64,000 nt of DNA. It comes from Deltaproteobacteria bacterium. GTDB taxonomy: Bacteria > Desulfobacterota > Deferrimicrobia > Deferrimicrobiales > Deferrimicrobiaceae. The stretch is taken from NCBI GenBank assembly GCA_021815305.1, contig JAKAHC010000009.1, positions 1 through 64,000 of the forward strand, given 5' to 3'. Numbering within the stretch: position 1 is the stretch's first letter; each line of letters opens with the position of its first letter. This document shows, in pieces, positions 36,784 through 46,998 of this stretch. The notes below the pieces were generated by a model. It searched no databases, was not told the DNA's origin, and saw only the letters and a program-made list of their open reading frames with translations. The translations under genes and the position numbers were made by a program.

Positions 36784-38142
36784 TTGACCGCCCCGAAACC
36801 GGCCGCGGACGCTCTCAACGTCCTCGTCGTCGACGACGAGAGCAACATCCGCAAGACGCTCACGATCTGCCTCGAAACCGACGGGCACCGCGTCACCCCC
36901 GTCAGCAATTTCCAGGACGCCGTTGCGGAAGCGTCGAGAAGGACGTTCCACATGGCCTTCGTCGACCTTCGTCTGGGCACGGCCGACGGCCTGGACCTGA
37001 TCCCCGTCCTGCTGGCCGGCAGCCCGTGGATGAAGATCATCGTCATCACCGCCTACGCATCGATCGACACGGCCGTGGAGGCGATGCGTCGCGGGGCGAC
37101 CGACTATATCCCCAAACCGTTCACGCCGGCGCAGGTTTCCCTGGCCGTGCGCAAGGTCGAACAGGTGCGCACCCTGGAACAGAAGGTCGCGGGTCTCCGG
37201 GAGGATCTGGAGAGAACGGCTCCCGAAGCACGATTCGAAAGCAACAGCCCCGCGATGCAGCGCGCGGTCGCGATGGCCCGGCAGGCGGCCCCGACCGACG
37301 CGGCGGTCCTGCTCCGGGGGGAGAGCGGGACCGGGAAAACGGTCCTTGCCCGGGCGATCCACCGGTGGAGCGTCCGGTCCGGGAAACCGTTCGGGGTCGT
37401 GTCCTGCCCGTCCCTTCCCGGGGAACTGCTGGAGAGCGAGTTGTTCGGACACGCAAGGGGGGCCTTCACCGGGGCGGTCCGGGACAACCCGGGCCGCATC
37501 GCGGCCTGCGACGGCGGGACACTTTTCCTCGACGAGATCGGGGATCTCCCGCTTTCCCTCCAACCCAAGCTGTTGCGGTTCCTGCAGGACCGGGAATACG
37601 AAAGGCTGGGCGACGCTGCGACCCGCAGGGCCGATGTCCGTGTCATCACCGCCACCAACCGGGACCTGGAAGGGGAGGTCCGGGCGGCACGGTTCCGCGA
37701 GGACCTTTTCTACCGGCTGAACGTCATCCAGGTCGAGATACCGCCCTTGCGCGAGCGTCTCCAGGACCTGGACGAGCTTGCCGCGCAGCATCTCGCCTTC
37801 TACGGAAAGGTGCACCACTGCCGGTTCCTCGGGTTTACGGACGGGGCCCTGCAGGCGTTGAGGTGCCATCGATGGCCGGGGAACCTGCGGGAGTTGCGCA
37901 ACGTCGTCGAGCGGGCTTCCATTCTTTGCAGGTCGGAATGGATCGGCGCGGAATATATCCCGGGTCCCCGTGAGGGAAGCGAGGCCCCGCCCTCCGTCGG
38001 CAGCATGATGAGCCTCGAGAAGATCGAAGAGGAGCATATCCGCCGGGTCCTGGCGGCCTCCCGGTCGCTGCAGGAGGCGGCAGGGATTCTCGGGATCGAC
38101 CAGGCCACGCTGTGGCGCCGGCGGAAGCAGTACGGCATCTGA
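36784..38142 (+). CDS. Sigma-54-dependent response regulator (NtrC type)
   Basis: A 452-residue activator. The receiver domain has Asp61 (MAFVDLRLG). The AAA+ domain has Walker A GESGTGKT, the sigma-54 contact loop GAFTGA (about 226-231) and Walker [12 protein letters not shown]. The C-terminal Fis-type HTH is [20 protein letters not shown]. It should drive open-complex formation by sigma-54 RNA polymerase when phosphorylated. It starts with TTG. A -24/-12 promoter 127 bp downstream heads an operon that includes a sensor kinase and kdpFABC. The simplest reading is that this regulator activates that promoter with that kinase. Confidence 0.88.
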
Positions 38143-38268: not shown

Positions 38269-38284
38269 TGGCGCGGGGCTTGCT
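38269..38284 (+). promoter_or_regulatory. Sigma-54 (-24/-12) promoter of the kdp operon
   Basis: TGGCGC-GGGGC-TTGCT matches the consensus TGGCAC-N5-TTGCW at all but one fixed position. The GG (38270-38271) and GC (38282-38283) doublets are exactly 10 bp apart. Transcription should begin near 38295, which leaves a 20-base leader with the ribosome site ggggagg before the TTG start at 38316. Confidence 0.72.
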
Positions 38285-38315
38285 TCCCCTTCCGTTGAAG
38301 GTCGGGGAGGGAGCC

Positions 38316-38900
38316 TTGAAACTTCGATACGGATACGAGAGTTCCCTGGTCGGCGTATGGGTCCTCTCGCTGTTCTTATCGTATCTGTCACCTGCCCAAA
38401 CCGCCGTCGGCGATATGGGAGCGACCGAAGGGTTTGAAAATTTGGAATGGGGTGCATCGATTGCGCAGGCGTTGCATGTCTATCCGGACTTGTACTTCCA
38501 CGGTTATATCCTTACGAGAGAGAAGGAAACACCATCCAGGATTTACTACAGGAAGAATGATACGGACAAAATCTACGGGGTCCCTTTCGATTCAGTGGAA
38601 TATTGGTTCAAGGATGACAGGTTTTACAGAATAGTGGCCGTGCTGGATTCGAATATCGGCCCAAGAACGCTGATGACCCAGGCGGAAAGATCGTATGACA
38701 CGCTGATGGACCTTATGAAGCGCAGATACGGGAAACCGAAGGAATACAAGGTGAGTTATGTAACAGAGTATCTTGCGGTCGTAAAAGAGGCGAAATGGAG
38801 AATCAGGGACGTATCGATTTTCCTGAAATACAACGGCGCCGCGAAGGGGGACTCGGATCGATTGATCTTGACGATGGGGAAGCAAGGAGGGACATCTTGA
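38316..38900 (+). CDS. Exported protein of unknown function in the kdp operon
   Basis: A 194-residue protein with a signal peptide (SSLVGVWVLSLFLSYLSPAQTA) and a mature part of about 155 residues. The mature part is rich in Tyr and charged residues (FENLEWGASIAQALHVYP, YWFKDDRFYRIVAVLD). The pattern resembles small periplasmic domains that compare supply and predicted values, but I recognise no family. The TTG start is preferred because ggggagg lies 6 bp before it; an in-frame TTG at 38280 would fall upstream of the predicted transcript. It overlaps the sensor kinase by 4 bp, so it may assist in sensing. Confidence 0.65.
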   Translation: MKLRYGYESSLVGVWVLSLFLSYLSPAQTAVGDMGATEGFENLEWGASIAQALHVYPDLYFHGYILTREKETPSRIYYRKNDTDKIYGVPFDSVEYWFKDDRFYRIVAVLDSNIGPRTLMTQAERSYDTLMDLMKRRYGKPKEYKVSYVTEYLAVVKEAKWRIRDVSIFLKYNGAAKGDSDRLILTMGKQGGTS

Positions 38901-40738
38901 GCCTTCGACGGAAGCTGGCCCTCGGGTTCCTGGGTTTGCTGATGATCATCGCGGGGATCGGGGTACACAACATCACGCGGATCACTTCCCTCGGGCAATC
39001 GATCGAGGTGATCCTTCGGGAGAATTACCGCAGTGTCGTCGCGTGCCAGCAGATGAAGGAAGCGCTCGACCGGATGGACAGCGGGGCGGTCTTCGTTCTC
39101 CTCGGCGCCTACCAGAAAGGGAACGGACAGATCGTGCAACAGGAGGCGCTGTTTGAAAAGGCCCTTCGCGCGGAACTGGCCAACATCACCCTGCCGGGAG
39201 AGGGGGAGAAGGCGGAGTCGTTGAAGAGGCTCTACGACCAATACCGATCCTCGATCGGTGTGATGGCGAACCCCGCGTTCGGGCGGGAAGCCCGCCGGAA
39301 AAAGTATTTCGACGAACTCCAGCCCCTGTTCCAGAAGATCAAAAAGACCGCGGACGACATCGAGCGGATGAACCAGCGGAACATGGTGGAAATGGATACG
39401 CGGGCCAAGCTGCAGGCCGCGTCGGTGCGGCGGCAGATGTACCTGATGCTCCTCGCCTCGACGCTCGTGGCGGCGAGTTTTCTGTTCCTGACGGGGAAGT
39501 GGATCCTCACGCCGATCACCCGCCTGATCTACTCCGCCAACGAGATCCGCAAAGGGAACCTGGACCTCGTGGTGCAGAGCGGTTCCCGCGACGAGATCGG
39601 GCAACTCTCCGAGGCGTTCAACGAGATGGCGGCTTCCTTGCGGGAGTTTCGGCGCACCGACCAGGCCCGGCTGTTGCGCATCCAGCGCTCCACGCAGCAG
39701 GCCTTCGACAGTCTCCCCGACGCGATCGCCGTCCTCAACGCGGAAGGGGAGGTCGAGGTGGCGACCGGGGCGGCACGGGACGCGTTCGGCCTGAAACCGG
39801 GGGGCAGCGCGCGGGAGGGGGCTTTCCCGTGGATGGCGGTCCTTTTCGAAGAGGCCCTCCGGAAAGGCCGCGTCGTGGAACTCGAGGGGGGACAGGCCGT
39901 AGTGCAGCGGTTTGTCCGGAACGAGGAGAAGTTCTACCGCCCGCGGGCCGTACCGATCCTCGATCCCGGGAGAGAGCCGGCGGGCGTGGTCCTGATCTTC
40001 CAGGACGTCACGCAACAGCGCCGGCAGGACGAGATGAAGCGCGGGGTGATCTCGACGGTTTCCCACCAGCTGAAGACCCCTCTCACCTCCATCCGCATGG
40101 CGCTTCACCTTCTGCTCGAGGAGAAGATCGGGGGGCTTACGCCGAAACAGGCGGACCTGCTGGTTGCCGCCCGCGAGGATGCCGACAGGCTCCACACCAT
40201 CGTCGATGAACTGCTGGACATCGGGCGGATGGAATCCGGCAAGGCGGAGATGGATGTACGCCCCGTATCGCCGGGCGGAATGGTTTCGGAGGAAGTGGAA
40301 CCGTATCGAAGCGCGGCCCGCGACGGCGGAGTGTGTCTGTCCGTCGAAATGCCCGCCGATCTCCCGAAGGTATGGGCGGATCCGGCCCGAATCGCACACG
40401 TTTTCTCCAACCTCCTTTCGAACGCCCTGAAGCACACCCCGCCTGGAGGGAACGTCACCCTTTCCGCGAGGGAAGAAGGGGAGTTCGTCCGGTTCGGGGT
40501 CTCCGACACCGGAGCGGGGATTCCCGGGCGGTTCCTGCCCCGCCTCTTCGAGCCGTTCTTCCGGGTTCCCGAGCAAGCGGCGGGTTCGGGAGTGGGTCTG
40601 GGCCTGGCCATCGTGAAGGAGATCGTGGACGCCCACGGGGGAACCGTCGGGGTGGAGAGCCGCGAGGGCCACGGAAGCACCTTTTTCTTCTCGCTGAGGA
40701 AGACGGGATGCCCGGCCTCGGAGGAGGATCGGGCATGA
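38897..40738 (+). CDS. Membrane sensor histidine kinase of the kdp operon
   Basis: A 613-residue kinase. Membrane helices lie at about 5-25 and 178-196 and flank a helical periplasmic sensor domain. HAMP follows (about 197-250, ITRLIYSANEIRKGNLDLV), then PAS (about 270-370). HisKA has the phospho-His in STVSHQLKTPL (near 390). The ATPase domain ends in GLGLAIVKEIVDAHGG. It begins with TTG overlapping the exported protein gene; ribosome site aaggagg. It is not KdpD: it has no KdpD or USP domain. Its gene sits between an NtrC-type regulator and kdpFABC, so it probably phosphorylates that regulator. Confidence 0.85.
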   Translation: MSLRRKLALGFLGLLMIIAGIGVHNITRITSLGQSIEVILRENYRSVVACQQMKEALDRMDSGAVFVLLGAYQKGNGQIVQQEALFEKALRAELANITLPGEGEKAESLKRLYDQYRSSIGVMANPAFGREARRKKYFDELQPLFQKIKKTADDIERMNQRNMVEMDTRAKLQAASVRRQMYLMLLASTLVAASFLFLTGKWILTPITRLIYSANEIRKGNLDLVVQSGSRDEIGQLSEAFNEMAASLREFRRTDQARLLRIQRSTQQAFDSLPDAIAVLNAEGEVEVATGAARDAFGLKPGGSAREGAFPWMAVLFEEALRKGRVVELEGGQAVVQRFVRNEEKFYRPRAVPILDPGREPAGVVLIFQDVTQQRRQDEMKRGVISTVSHQLKTPLTSIRMALHLLLEEKIGGLTPKQADLLVAAREDADRLHTIVDELLDIGRMESGKAEMDVRPVSPGGMVSEEVEPYRSAARDGGVCLSVEMPADLPKVWADPARIAHVFSNLLSNALKHTPPGGNVTLSAREEGEFVRFGVSDTGAGIPGRFLPRLFEPFFRVPEQAAGSGVGLGLAIVKEIVDAHGGTVGVESREGHGSTFFFSLRKTGCPASEEDRA

Positions 40739-40818
40739 TCGACGGGATCTTCATCGTCGTCATCATCGCGATGTTCGGACTGTGCGCGTGGTTCGCGTAT
40801 TCGCTGGAAAGGATATGA
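40735..40818 (+). CDS. 27-residue membrane peptide (KdpF-like position)
   Basis: A minimal open frame, MIDGIFIVVIIAMFGLCAW then FAYSLERI, encoding one hydrophobic helix with charged ends. Its ATG overlaps the kinase stop (ATGA), and it ends 4 bp before kdpF. It could be a second KdpF-like peptide or a regulatory peptide of the kinase. The overlap with both neighbours argues that it is translated. Confidence 0.55.
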   Translation: MIDGIFIVVIIAMFGLCAWFAYSLERI

Positions 40819-40822
40819 ATCC

Positions 40823-40906
40823 ATGTTCGACGTCCTTGTAGGCATCGTCGGGGTCCTGTTGATCGGGTATCTCTTCGTATCGGTCTTCAAGCCGGAAAAA
40901 TTCTGA
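40823..40906 (+). CDS. kdpF: K+-transporting ATPase small subunit KdpF
   Basis: A 27-residue single-helix peptide ending in the family-typical FKPEKF. KdpF stabilises the KdpABC complex in the inner membrane by binding at the KdpA surface. Size, sequence end and position directly before kdpA all fit. Confidence 0.82.
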   Translation: MFDVLVGIVGVLLIGYLFVSVFKPEKF

Positions 40907-40925: not shown

Positions 40926-42647
40926 ATGGACATCTACGGATGGGTGCAACTGGCGATTTTCCTGGGCCTGCTCCTGCTGGCCACCAGGCCGATGGGCCTG
41001 TATCTCTTCCGCGTCCTCGACCCGGAGGGAAAGACGTTCCTCGACCCCGTCCTGAAACCGGTCGAGCGGATCTTCTACCGCCTGATGGGGGTCGACCCGG
41101 CCGTGGAGCACGACTGGAAGCGGTATGCGGTTTCCCTGCTGGCGTTCAGCCTGGTGGGGACCCTTTTCACCTACGCCATCCTGCGTCTGCAGCACCTGCT
41201 GCCGCTGAACCCGCAGCACCTGGGGCCCCTGAGCGGCGATCTCGCCTTCAACACGTCGATCAGCTTCATCACGAATACGAACTGGCAGAACTACGGCGGG
41301 GAATCGACGATGTCGTACCTTTCGCAGATGGCCGCCCTCGCCCTCCACAACTTCACCTCCGCCGCATCCGGCATCGCCGTGGCGGCGGTGCTCGTGCGGG
41401 GGATCGCGTGGCACACCGCCAAGACGGTGGGAAACTTCCTGGTGGACCTTGTCCGGACGACCCTGTACCTGCTGCTTCCCCTCTCTCTCGTCTACGCGGT
41501 CTTCCTTGTCTCCCAGGGGACGATCCAGAATTTCCGACCCTATGTGACCGCACAGACGGTCGAACCGGCGGCCGCGCCGCAGACCATCGTGCAGGGGCCG
41601 ATGGCGTCGCAGGTGGCGATCAAGATGCTGGGGACCAACGGCGGAGGGTACACCAACGCCAACGCGGCCCATCCTTACGAGAATCCGACACCCCTGTCGA
41701 ACTTCGTCCAGATCTTCTCGATCTTCCTGATCCCCGGCGGTCTCACCTTTTACCTGGGGCGGATGGTGAAAAACCGGAAACACGGCTGGTCGATATGGGG
41801 GGCCATGGCCGCCCTGTTCCTTGCGGGCGTCCTTCTTTGCTGGTGGGCGGAAGCAGCGGGGAATCCCCGCCTCCACGCGCTCGGCGTGGCATCCGCCAGT
41901 GGAAACATGGAGGGGAAGGAGGTCCGGTTCGGGATCTTCGACTCCGCCCTGTTCGCCACGGTGACCACGGACGCCTCGTGCGGGGCGGTGAACACGATGC
42001 ACGACTCTATGACGCCGCTGGGAGGGCTGGTCCCGTTGGTCAACCTGCACCTGGGGGAGGTGGTCTTCGGCGGTGTGGGCGCGGGCCTGTACGGGATGCT
42101 GGTCTTCGTGATCCTGACCGTCTTTCTCGCGGGGCTGATGGTGGGCCGCACGCCGGAATACCTGGGGAAGAAGATCGAGTCGTACGACGTGAAGGTCAGC
42201 GCGCTGGCCGTGCTCCTCCTCATCCTCGACATCATGGGGTTCACGGCGTGGGCGGTGGTGAGCAAGTGGGGCCTCGCGGGTCTGAACAACGCCGGGCCGC
42301 ACGGGTTCAGCGAGATCCTGTACGCCTTCTCCTCGGCCACGGCCAACAACGGCAGCGCCTTCGCGGGGCTGTCCGGCGACACTCCCTGGTACGACACGAC
42401 GCTGGCCGTATCCATGATGATCGGGCGGTTTTTCTTCATCATGCCCGTCCTCGCGCTCGCGGGGAATATGGCGAAGAAGAAGATTCTCCCCGAAAGCGGC
42501 GGCAGTTTCCCCGTCGCCGGCCCGGTTTTCGCCATCCTGCTGGTGGGCACGATCCTGATCGTCGGGCTCCTGTCGTTTTTCCCGGCCCTTGCCGTGGGGC
42601 CGATCGTCGAACATTACCTGATGATCCGTTCGAACGCGGTATTTTAG
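40926..42647 (+). CDS. kdpA: K+-transporting ATPase subunit KdpA
   Basis: A 573-residue channel-like subunit with ten membrane helices that selects and admits K+. Selectivity-filter segments typical of the superfamily of K+ transporters are visible: [40 protein letters not shown] and [13 protein letters not shown]. The length matches the usual 555-600. Ribosome site aaggagcgatccc. It is the first large gene of the pump operon and is followed closely by kdpB. Confidence 0.95.
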
Positions 42648-42664: not shown

Positions 42665-44686
<2,022 letters not shown>

Positions 44687-44698
44687 AAAGGGAACCCC

Positions 44699-45280
44699 AT
44701 GAAGGTGCTGATCGCGGAACTTCGCGCATCGATCGTCCTTACGCTGCTGCTTGCCGCAGTGTGCTGCGGCATCTACCCGTTGATCGTCTGGGGGATCGCG
44801 CAGGGGGTGTTCCCCGGAAGGGCGAACGGGTCCCTTGTCGAAGTGGACGGCAAGGTCGCCGGCTCGTCGCTCCTCGCCCAGCGGTTTACCGGCCCGAAAT
44901 ATTTCCATCCCCGTCCGTCCGCGGCGGGTCAGGGGTATGACGCCGCCGACTCCGGAGGCACGAACCTGGGACCGACGTCAAAGAAGCTGATCGGCACGGT
45001 TCGGGAACGCGTAGCCGCTTATCGTGCGGAGAACGGTCTCCTGCCCGATGCACGGGTTCCGGCCGACGCCGTAACCTCCTCGGCCAGCGGCCTCGACCCC
45101 GACATCAGCGTCGGGAACGCGTTGTTGCAGGCGGCCCGGGTCGCCACCGCCCGCGGGATCCCGAAGGAGGCGGTCCTCAAGAGGGTGCGGGCGCATACGG
45201 AAGGCCGCGATCTCGGGGTCCTGGGGGAGCCGAGGGTGAACGTGCTGCTGCTGAACCTGGACCTGGACGGTAAAATGTAG
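44699..45280 (+). CDS. kdpC: K+-transporting ATPase subunit KdpC
   Basis: A 193-residue subunit with one N-terminal membrane helix (SIVLTLLLAAVCCGIYPLIV) and a periplasmic domain. Family blocks include FTGPKYFHPRPSAAG, NLGPTSKKL, PADAVTSSASGLDPDIS and GEPRVNVLLLNLDLD. It raises the apparent affinity of the Kdp pump. The KdpD-EIIA fusion gene follows 5 bp later. Confidence 0.93.
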   Translation: MKVLIAELRASIVLTLLLAAVCCGIYPLIVWGIAQGVFPGRANGSLVEVDGKVAGSSLLAQRFTGPKYFHPRPSAAGQGYDAADSGGTNLGPTSKKLIGTVRERVAAYRAENGLLPDARVPADAVTSSASGLDPDISVGNALLQAARVATARGIPKEAVLKRVRAHTEGRDLGVLGEPRVNVLLLNLDLDGKM

Positions 45281-45285
45281 CCGGT

Positions 45286-46998
45286 ATGACGGAAGAACGG
45301 GCCGAAACGTTCCTGCGCCTGATCCGCCGCGCGGAGCGCGGCAGGCTGAAGGTGTATCTCGGGTACGGCGCAGGCGTCGGCAAGACCTACCAGATGCTCC
45401 TGGAAGGGCACCGCCTGAAGGACGAGGGGATCGACGTCGTCATCGGCCTGGTGGAAACCCACGAGCGCGCGGAGACCGCGGGGCTGATCAAGGGGCTGGA
45501 GGTCGTCCCGCGCCGCCGTCAGGAGTACCGCGGCGTGGCCCTCGAGGAGATGGACCTGGATGCCGTTCTCGCCCGGAAACCCCAGGTCGCCCTCATCGAC
45601 GAACTGGCCCACACCAACGTCCCGGGAAGCCGGAACCCGAAGAGATACCAGGACGTGCAGGACGTCCTGGCCGCGGGGATCCACGTCGTGACCACGCTGA
45701 ACATCCAGCACCTCGAAAGTCTCTACGACCTGGTGGAGAGGACAACCCACGTCAGGATCCGGGAGCGGATCCCGGACACCGTACTCGGCGAGGCGGACCA
45801 GCTTGTGAACGTCGACCTGACGACCGAGGATCTGAGGAAGCGGCTGCTGGAGGGGAAAATCTACCCTCCGGACCGGATCGCGACCGCGCTTTCCAACTTC
45901 TTCACCGAATCCAACCTCGAGGAGCTCCGGGAGCTGACACTGCGGGAGCTGGCCTCGCAGATCGACCTGCGGCGCCGGGACACGGTGGAAGAGGAATCGT
46001 TCGGCGGCCCCGACCAGATCATGGTCTGCCTCAGTTCCCGGGGTCCCAACAGCGAGGCGCTCCTTCGGTTCGCATCCCGGCTGGCGGGCAGGCTCAACAG
46101 GAACTGGTACGCCGTCTACGTTCAGACCCCGTCCGAGGAGCCCACGGTCATCGACGCAAAGACCCAACGCATTCTCTCCGGAACCCTTACTCTCGCCAAG
46201 CAGCTGGGCGCGATGGTCTTCACCTACAAGGGCGAGGACGTCGCGGACACGCTCTTTCGGTTCGCAAGGGAATACCGGGTCGGCACGATCGTCGTCGGCA
46301 CCCCCAGCCCCATTCCGGCGTGGAAGCGGTTGCTGGGAAAGCGCAGTACGACGGGTCGGCTGGTTGCGGACCCTCGCGGGATGACGATCGTCGTGCTCGA
46401 TACCAGGAAAGGGGAGGCTGTGACCCGCGCCGCTCCCTCCCCGGCCCTCCGGGAAAGGCCGGAGGGCGCATCGGAAAAGGAAAGGAGCCCCGCACCTTCC
46501 CCGCCGAAGCAACCTCTCCTGAGCCTCCTGCTGGGTCCGGGGCGGATCGTGATATGGAACCAGCCGGTCGGCAAGGAACTCGCCTTGCGTACCCTTGTGG
46601 ATTCCGCGGTGGGGGACTGCGGAGCCGGGGACCCGGCGACGATCCTCGGATCGGTCCTGAAGCGCGAGGAAGAGGGGTCGACGTTCTTCAACGAGGGGGT
46701 GGCGTTCCCCCACGCCCGGATCGAAAAGCTGGAAGCCCCCGTCGTCGCGATGGGCATCACGCTCCGGGGAGTGCAAGACGTCTCCACGGAGAAGCCGGTG
46801 GAGTACATCTTCCTCGTTCTCACGCCCGCCGGTTCTCCCGATACCCAGGTTCAGATCCTGGGGATCCTTGCGAGGGTTTCCAGGAACCGGCACCTGCTCC
46901 TGAAGATCCGATCCTGCCGGACCCCGGAAGATGTCCTGTCGGCCATCCGGGATTGGGAGGTCCGGAGCGCGGCCGGGGCGACCGAACCTGCCTTGTAA
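45286..46998 (+). CDS. KdpD sensor domain plus USP plus PTS EIIA fusion, no kinase core
   Basis: A 570-residue protein. Residues 18-225 are the KdpD sensor domain with Walker A GYGAGVGKT and Walker B VALIDELAHTN. Residues 240-375 are a universal-stress (USP) domain (IMVCLSSRGPNSEALLRFA). A Pro/Ala-rich linker (about 376-425) leads to a type-2 PTS EIIA domain (about 430-560) with its phosphorylatable His476 in AFPHARIEKL. The transmembrane, GAF, HisKA and ATPase parts of classical KdpD are all missing. In E. coli, EIIA-Ntr binds KdpD and stimulates it, so the fusion may hard-wire PTS state to K+ control. A partner kinase is encoded in the same operon. Confidence 0.85.
   Translation: MTEERAETFLRLIRRAERGRLKVYLGYGAGVGKTYQMLLEGHRLKDEGIDVVIGLVETHERAETAGLIKGLEVVPRRRQEYRGVALEEMDLDAVLARKPQVALIDELAHTNVPGSRNPKRYQDVQDVLAAGIHVVTTLNIQHLESLYDLVERTTHVRIRERIPDTVLGEADQLVNVDLTTEDLRKRLLEGKIYPPDRIATALSNFFTESNLEELRELTLRELASQIDLRRRDTVEEESFGGPDQIMVCLSSRGPNSEALLRFASRLAGRLNRNWYAVYVQTPSEEPTVIDAKTQRILSGTLTLAKQLGAMVFTYKGEDVADTLFRFAREYRVGTIVVGTPSPIPAWKRLLGKRSTTGRLVADPRGMTIVVLDTRKGEAVTRAAPSPALRERPEGASEKERSPAPSPPKQPLLSLLLGPGRIVIWNQPVGKELALRTLVDSAVGDCGAGDPATILGSVLKREEEGSTFFNEGVAFPHARIEKLEAPVVAMGITLRGVQDVSTEKPVEYIFLVLTPAGSPDTQVQILGILARVSRNRHLLLKIRSCRTPEDVLSAIRDWEVRSAAGATEPAL

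Follow-up and report, generated by a model that had tools for sequence, protein, structure and literature searches.

A widely conserved fusion of the KdpD serine kinase to an EIIA-Ntr-like domain, a candidate PTS-gated regulator of potassium uptake

In a 64,000-nt stretch of a Deltaproteobacteria bacterium genome (contig JAKAHC010000009.1, family Deferrimicrobiaceae; hereafter the window), the last gene of a kdp potassium-uptake operon encodes a protein that joins a KdpD domain and a Usp domain to an EIIA domain of the phosphotransferase system (PTS). This fusion is confirmed as a real, widely conserved protein and no accident of a single genome, as its architecture is kept in 89 distinct full-length sequences from more than 10 phyla. 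We give most weight to a bifunctional regulator, in which the EIIA domain would gate a serine kinase acting on the pump subunit KdpB and the protein may also act on a separate histidine kinase (HK), and we regard such a PTS-gated regulator of K+ uptake as somewhat probable.

The gene coincides exactly with an open reading frame (ORF) at 45286–46998 on the + strand, as are all window features given below, and encodes 570 aa. Pfam assigns residues 18–226 (45337–45963) to KdpD, an atypical serine kinase domain (PF02702, 310 bits against a cut-off of 26.1), and residues 428–555 to PTS_EIIA_2 (PF00359, 61 bits against 27). In an AlphaFold2 model built from 69 aligned orthologues (mean predicted local distance difference test score, pLDDT, 77.5; predicted template modelling (TM) score, pTM, 0.40), the Usp and EIIA domains are confident and the KdpD domain less so, and confidence is very low in a flexible linker at residues 377–405 (46414–46500; pLDDT about 40), which differs in length among homologues. 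Foldseek matched the N-terminal part of the model to the KdpD N-domain 2r8r at 54% identity, and the EIIA part, residues 411–565 (46516–46980), to EIIA-Ntr 1a6j with a TM-score of 0.87. The Usp domain at residues of about 244–371 (46015–46398) falls under the Pfam cut-off (PF00582, residues 244–341, 17 bits against 24) but is supported by its predicted fold, which matches the crystal structure of KdpD-Usp with cyclic di-AMP (c-di-AMP; 7ji4, TM-score 0.85). The original prediction for this stretch had described this order of KdpD, Usp, linker and EIIA, named His476 in the EIIA domain and noted nothing resembling a HisKA or ATPase domain. Profile matches and predicted folds bear out the architecture, the EIIA domain included; Pfam detects neither HisKA nor HATPase in it; and the histidine is precisely the residue named, that of F-P-H-A-R in the EIIA domain (codon 46711–46713).

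The four transmembrane segments, GAF domain and HisKA/HATPase expected after Usp in full-length KdpD are lacking in Pfam, and the protein scores 355 bits against the cut-off of 1123 for the full-length NCBIfam model PRK10490. Its top NCBIfam match is NF038185 (KdpD_non_kinase), at 355.8 bits and below the curated cut-off of 550. The tail falls short of both PtsN equivalogs (TIGR01419, 33.8 against 138.7 bits; PRK10896, 35.9 against 221), and belongs to the broader PTS EIIA-2/EIIA-Ntr group by its PF00359 match above cut-off, EIIA fold and phospho-acceptor histidine. A kinase hidden downstream by a frameshift was ruled out, because the next gene lies on the opposite strand and relatives have an open frame of equal length. 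The genome encodes no other KdpD domain, and three EIIA-2 domains in all.

Within the family, 6 of the 23 other genomes carry full-length orthologues with 68–79% identity. Sampling the phylum turned up more full-length copies, as well as short KdpD/Usp proteins without the tail and ordinary full-length KdpD, and scanning GTDB genomes yielded 80 loci, almost all of them full length, with identities of 49–71%. These 80 are all metagenome assemblies, with taxa taken from the record titles: Thermodesulfobacteriota, other Deltaproteobacteria, Aminicenantes, Hydrogenedentes, Krumholzibacteria, Acidobacteria, Phycisphaerales, Lentisphaeria, Verrucomicrobia, Fibrobacteres, Riflebacteria, Latescibacterota, Dadabacteria, Oligoflexaceae and Chlorobiaceae. 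His476, Pro475, Glu461 and Gly495 are invariant (89/89) and most of the EIIA domain is variable; the fixation of His476, Pro475 and Glu461 in such a domain argues for selection on the phospho-site. Every fusion falls in one clade of a KdpD-Usp tree, which also includes five short rows, one of them (L129) merely cut by a contig end, and a single gain of the tail with two or three losses explains this pattern. Short relatives L044–L047 retain the operon partners and lack EIIA, and no separate EIIA gene adjoins the short relatives in the loci examined.

The description of the protein in the original prediction as a sensor half with its kinase deleted is wrong in its wording, because the serine-kinase residues of KdpD are all present. 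Silberberg et al. (2024, PMC11018627) showed that the KdpD domain acts as a serine kinase of atypical type whose phosphorylation of KdpB at Ser162 turns the pump off, an activity that extends to an HK-less KdpD/Usp protein; HK-less proteins of this kind are a known class, one of which is stimulated by c-di-AMP (PMC11018627). An alignment of the window with KdpD and KdpB of E. coli located in the fusion a Walker A motif at G26–T34 (G-X5-GKT: G26..G32K33T34), Walker B residues D105/E106, R186, and Y35 as the adenine-clamp aromatic. The equivalents of Walker A, D109, E110 and R190 are present in 89/89 family members, and an aromatic residue occupies the W39 position in 84/89. It is the histidine kinase that resides on another polypeptide, and the serine kinase is retained in the fusion. 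On the substrate side, Ser156 in the TGES motif of the window KdpB (codon 43130–43132) corresponds to E. coli Ser162, and a motif search recovered the TGES serine in 63 of 69 KdpB-bearing loci. The short KdpD of Deinococcus geothermalis (DgKdpD) resembles the fusion in combining KdpD and Usp without a histidine kinase, in its catalytic residues and in occurring with kdpFABC, whereas the fusion adds a C-terminal EIIA with an invariant phospho-histidine, carries an E. coli-type motif in Usp and shares its operon with a separate HAMP-PAS kinase and a sigma-54 regulator. The earlier survey of this kinase class covered species listed in LPSN/UniProt (PMC11018627).

PTS donors that could serve the EIIA domain are encoded in the same genome, where one cluster holds EI, HPr, hprK, ptsN, rapZ, rpoN and sorbose-type EIIB/EIIC. 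EI was found in 42/42 fusion genomes (in one as two pieces below cut-off) and HPr in 40/42, the two without a match being metagenome assemblies whose completeness is not given. The sorbose-type EIIC and EIIB genes of this genome (C6, L145:7567-8744 (-)) lie within the rpoN-ptsN-hprK-HPr-EI cluster. Elsewhere in the genome (C11:176952-177275), a 226-aa protein combines a helix-turn-helix-like N-terminus (MLSIQEVARELRVSEKTIRRML) with EIIA-2, another regulatory EIIA fusion.

PtsN is a known partner and regulator of KdpD in several species, with binding in E. coli, P. putida, R. leguminosarum and S. fredii (PMC9239096, PMC13104625), contacting the HisKA region in E. coli (PMC9239096) and the GAF domain in S. 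fredii (PMC13104625). Both regions are absent from the fusion polypeptide, which weakens the original proposal that the protein captures the E. coli PtsN-KdpD interaction; its broader claims, a link between the PTS and K+ control and an association with the separate kinase and the Kdp pump, are supported. Since HisKA and GAF are missing, the tail would either gate the serine kinase in cis or reach the separate kinase in trans, and a PtsN-type contact, if there is one, would have to be made in trans with that kinase. In both the E. coli system and this one an EIIA-Ntr-type protein and KdpD jointly act on kdp, but there the two are separate proteins and PtsN works on the transmitter, whereas here EIIA is covalently joined to a KdpD part without a transmitter. 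The ptsN2 gene of alpha-proteobacterial kdpABCDE operons likewise places an EIIA-Ntr gene inside a kdp operon, and PtsN2 binds KdpD; it differs in being a separate gene that accompanies a full-length KdpD and KdpE.

The operon of the window carries a sigma-54-activating response regulator (RR) with receiver, AAA+ and Fis helix-turn-helix domains (36784–38142), followed by a predicted −24/−12 sigma-54 promoter TGGCGCGGGGCTTGCT (38269–38284, score 15.8 of 16.8), the separate histidine kinase with HAMP, PAS, HisKA and HATPase domains (38795–40738), a kdpF-like micro-ORF MFDVLVGIVGVLLIGYLFVSVFKPEKF (40823–40906) with counterparts in most loci, kdpA (40926–42647; PF03814, 777 bits), kdpB (42665–44686), kdpC (44699–45280; PF02669, 233 bits) and finally the fusion. 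The order RR, HK, kdpFABC, fusion recurs across phyla in most loci with enough flank, and the fusion directly follows kdpC in most loci. The regulator carries GAFTGA (GSFTGA in some relatives), as expected of a sigma-54 activator. Within a fixed stretch of 300 nt beyond the RR stop, and at a threshold of at least 14.4 of 16.8, we found a −24/−12 site in 27 of 47 loci, compared with 4 of 892 background windows; a first scan, from the aligned RR end to the HK start, had given almost nothing because the HK start was placed too early. At L081, kdpA directly follows the RR gene and the promoter lies in between. E. coli KdpE belongs to another regulator family, the OmpR type, and the kdp system here therefore looks sigma-54-run, with an NtrC-type regulator and a predicted promoter ahead of the operon; in many phyla kdp expression apparently depends on sigma-54. 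An operon of the same kind is known from Desulfovibrio vulgaris (DVU3334–3339), where the regulator DVU3334 controls its own kdp operon, the kinase and KdpD/Usp parts also lie on separate ORFs, and DVU3334–3336 were previously interpreted as including a histidine kinase split over two ORFs (PMC3333781); DVU3336 differs in being described with only K+ sensor and UspA domains and no EIIA (PMC3333781).

Two small ORFs of this operon lie outside the named genes. Between the kinase and kdpF, at 40735–40818, another micro-ORF, about 27 residues long (MIDGIFIVVIIAMFGLCAWFAYSLERI), has counterparts with the pattern MIDLVYI..FFGLC.LYARACERL in the same position in many loci from several phyla, and may encode an unnamed membrane partner of Kdp. 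Between the RR and kinase genes, a small ORF at 38280–38900 has no Pfam match; the TTG codon mechanically assigned as its start overlaps the sigma-54 site, which makes a more downstream start probable. This gap is shorter in most other loci, often about 100 nt.

As a mechanism we propose that EI and HPr would phosphorylate His476 on an EIIA-Ntr-like domain flexibly tethered to a core of kinase plus Usp. The phosphorylation state, whatever the sign of its effect, would gate the serine kinase, which would phosphorylate the TGES serine of KdpB (Ser156) and switch the K+ pump off, and/or the interaction of the fusion with the separate HAMP-PAS histidine kinase, which would in turn drive the sigma-54 RR and the kdp promoter. 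Phosphoenolpyruvate or nitrogen state would thereby be joined to the activity, and probably also the expression, of high-affinity K+ uptake. The support for this account comes from the serine-kinase residues, the KdpB serine, the phospho-site, the PTS donors, the position in the operon and the PtsN-KdpD precedent. Several points weigh against it: the predicted model has no fixed interface between EIIA and kinase (pTM 0.40); EI and HPr also occur in short-KdpD genomes, making them necessary but not discriminating; KdpB may not be the sole target everywhere; and the main input could be c-di-AMP rather than the PTS.

It is quite possible, though we would put it below even, that the protein instead completes a split KdpD, serving mainly to feed input to the separate histidine kinase, with serine kinase activity secondary and EIIA, unphosphorylated or phosphorylated, docking on the kinase transmitter in trans to tune sigma-54 transcription. 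The action of PtsN on the HisKA/transmitter of E. coli (PMC9239096) and the two-ORF reading of the D. vulgaris kinase beside the kdp regulator DVU3334 (PMC3333781) would fit such a division, as would the position of the histidine kinase gene, which immediately precedes the fusion in L080, L081, L082, L108, L110, L124, L136 and L137, three of which (L124, L136 and L137) keep an RR-KimA-HK-fusion cluster where kdp genes were not found. A pure adaptor would, however, have no need of serine-kinase residues, which are kept in 89/89 sequences, and the short relatives L044–L047 retain the same operon partners without EIIA.

Fusions that adjoin an RR, an HK and a KimA-related transporter, with no kdpABC alongside, occur in L124, L136 and L137 (Chlorobiaceae) and in L109 (Fibrobacteres). 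The KimA-type K+ transporters, inside or beside the RR-HK-fusion cluster, lie at L136:3895-5889 (E 6e-65 against KimA, PDB 6s3k), L137:1896-3890, L124:1035-3026 and L109:3421-5568. No KdpA or KdpB above family cut-off was found anywhere in these four genomes, by a search that recovered KdpB in L116, L126 and the window genome, and these fusion copies have kept both their serine-kinase residues and His476, which is why KdpB is perhaps not the only target. The absence of kdp beside the fusion is certain locally, not genome-wide: KimA or the kinase may be an additional target in these genomes, or else a distant kdp is missing from incomplete assemblies. KimA is also found near the operon in several loci where kdp is present, for example L116, L119, L126, L128, L113 and L085. 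We tentatively raise a more general form of the proposal, in which a PTS-gated serine kinase would control K+ uptake at large and, in Kdp-less genomes, act on a KimA-type transporter and/or the adjacent histidine kinase; if so, the state of the phosphorelay would set K+ import through the tethered EIIA. In L126, kdpB (G342:C14:33151-34449) matches only positions 3–440 of 675 and its sister L137 is without kdp; kdp may be decaying in this Chlorobiaceae clade.

We consider it unlikely that c-di-AMP acting on Usp provides the main input, as in D. geothermalis KdpD, with the EIIA tail a minor modulator. A diadenylate cyclase is encoded in most fusion genomes, that of the window included, and likewise in short-KdpD genomes, so that EIIA as a substitute for c-di-AMP control was dismissed; because most carriers have the cyclase, c-di-AMP likely has some part in control of the fusion. 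The Usp fold matches 7ji4 and, of the published c-di-AMP motif (A/G/C)XSXSX2N(Y/F), residues C248, S250 and N255 are conserved. The second serine (R252) and the aromatic (S256) are not matched, however, and the domain instead carries the E. coli-type RXXXR-X8-WXAVY motif, although weaker binding is possible; moreover, the invariant His476 places the tail under selection, and G005 (96% complete) has the fusion with no cyclase detected. That the tail is a degenerate remnant or an annotation artefact of a chance fusion is highly improbable and already refuted by its conservation with an invariant His476 in one clade of many phyla, even though the second active-site histidine of EIIA is often replaced by glutamine (Q in 46 and H in 41 of 89).

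All the domains are already known, and so are the short KdpD form, the serine kinase and the link between PtsN and KdpD. We found no description of a KdpD-EIIA fusion in the open PMC literature or the text of PMC11018627 in a limited search, and surveys of PTS domain fusions may mention it. The fusion widens the newly described class of KdpD serine kinases and predicts a signal input for it, namely PTS phosphorylation. Coupling between the PTS(Ntr) and K+ transport has long been disputed, with partners that are separate and transient; a natural covalent fusion found in many phyla with an invariant phospho-histidine says that the coupling is direct, and brings the question into a single protein that allows an in vitro test. 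It points to a direct wiring of energy or nitrogen state into the control of K+ uptake in many uncultured bacteria.
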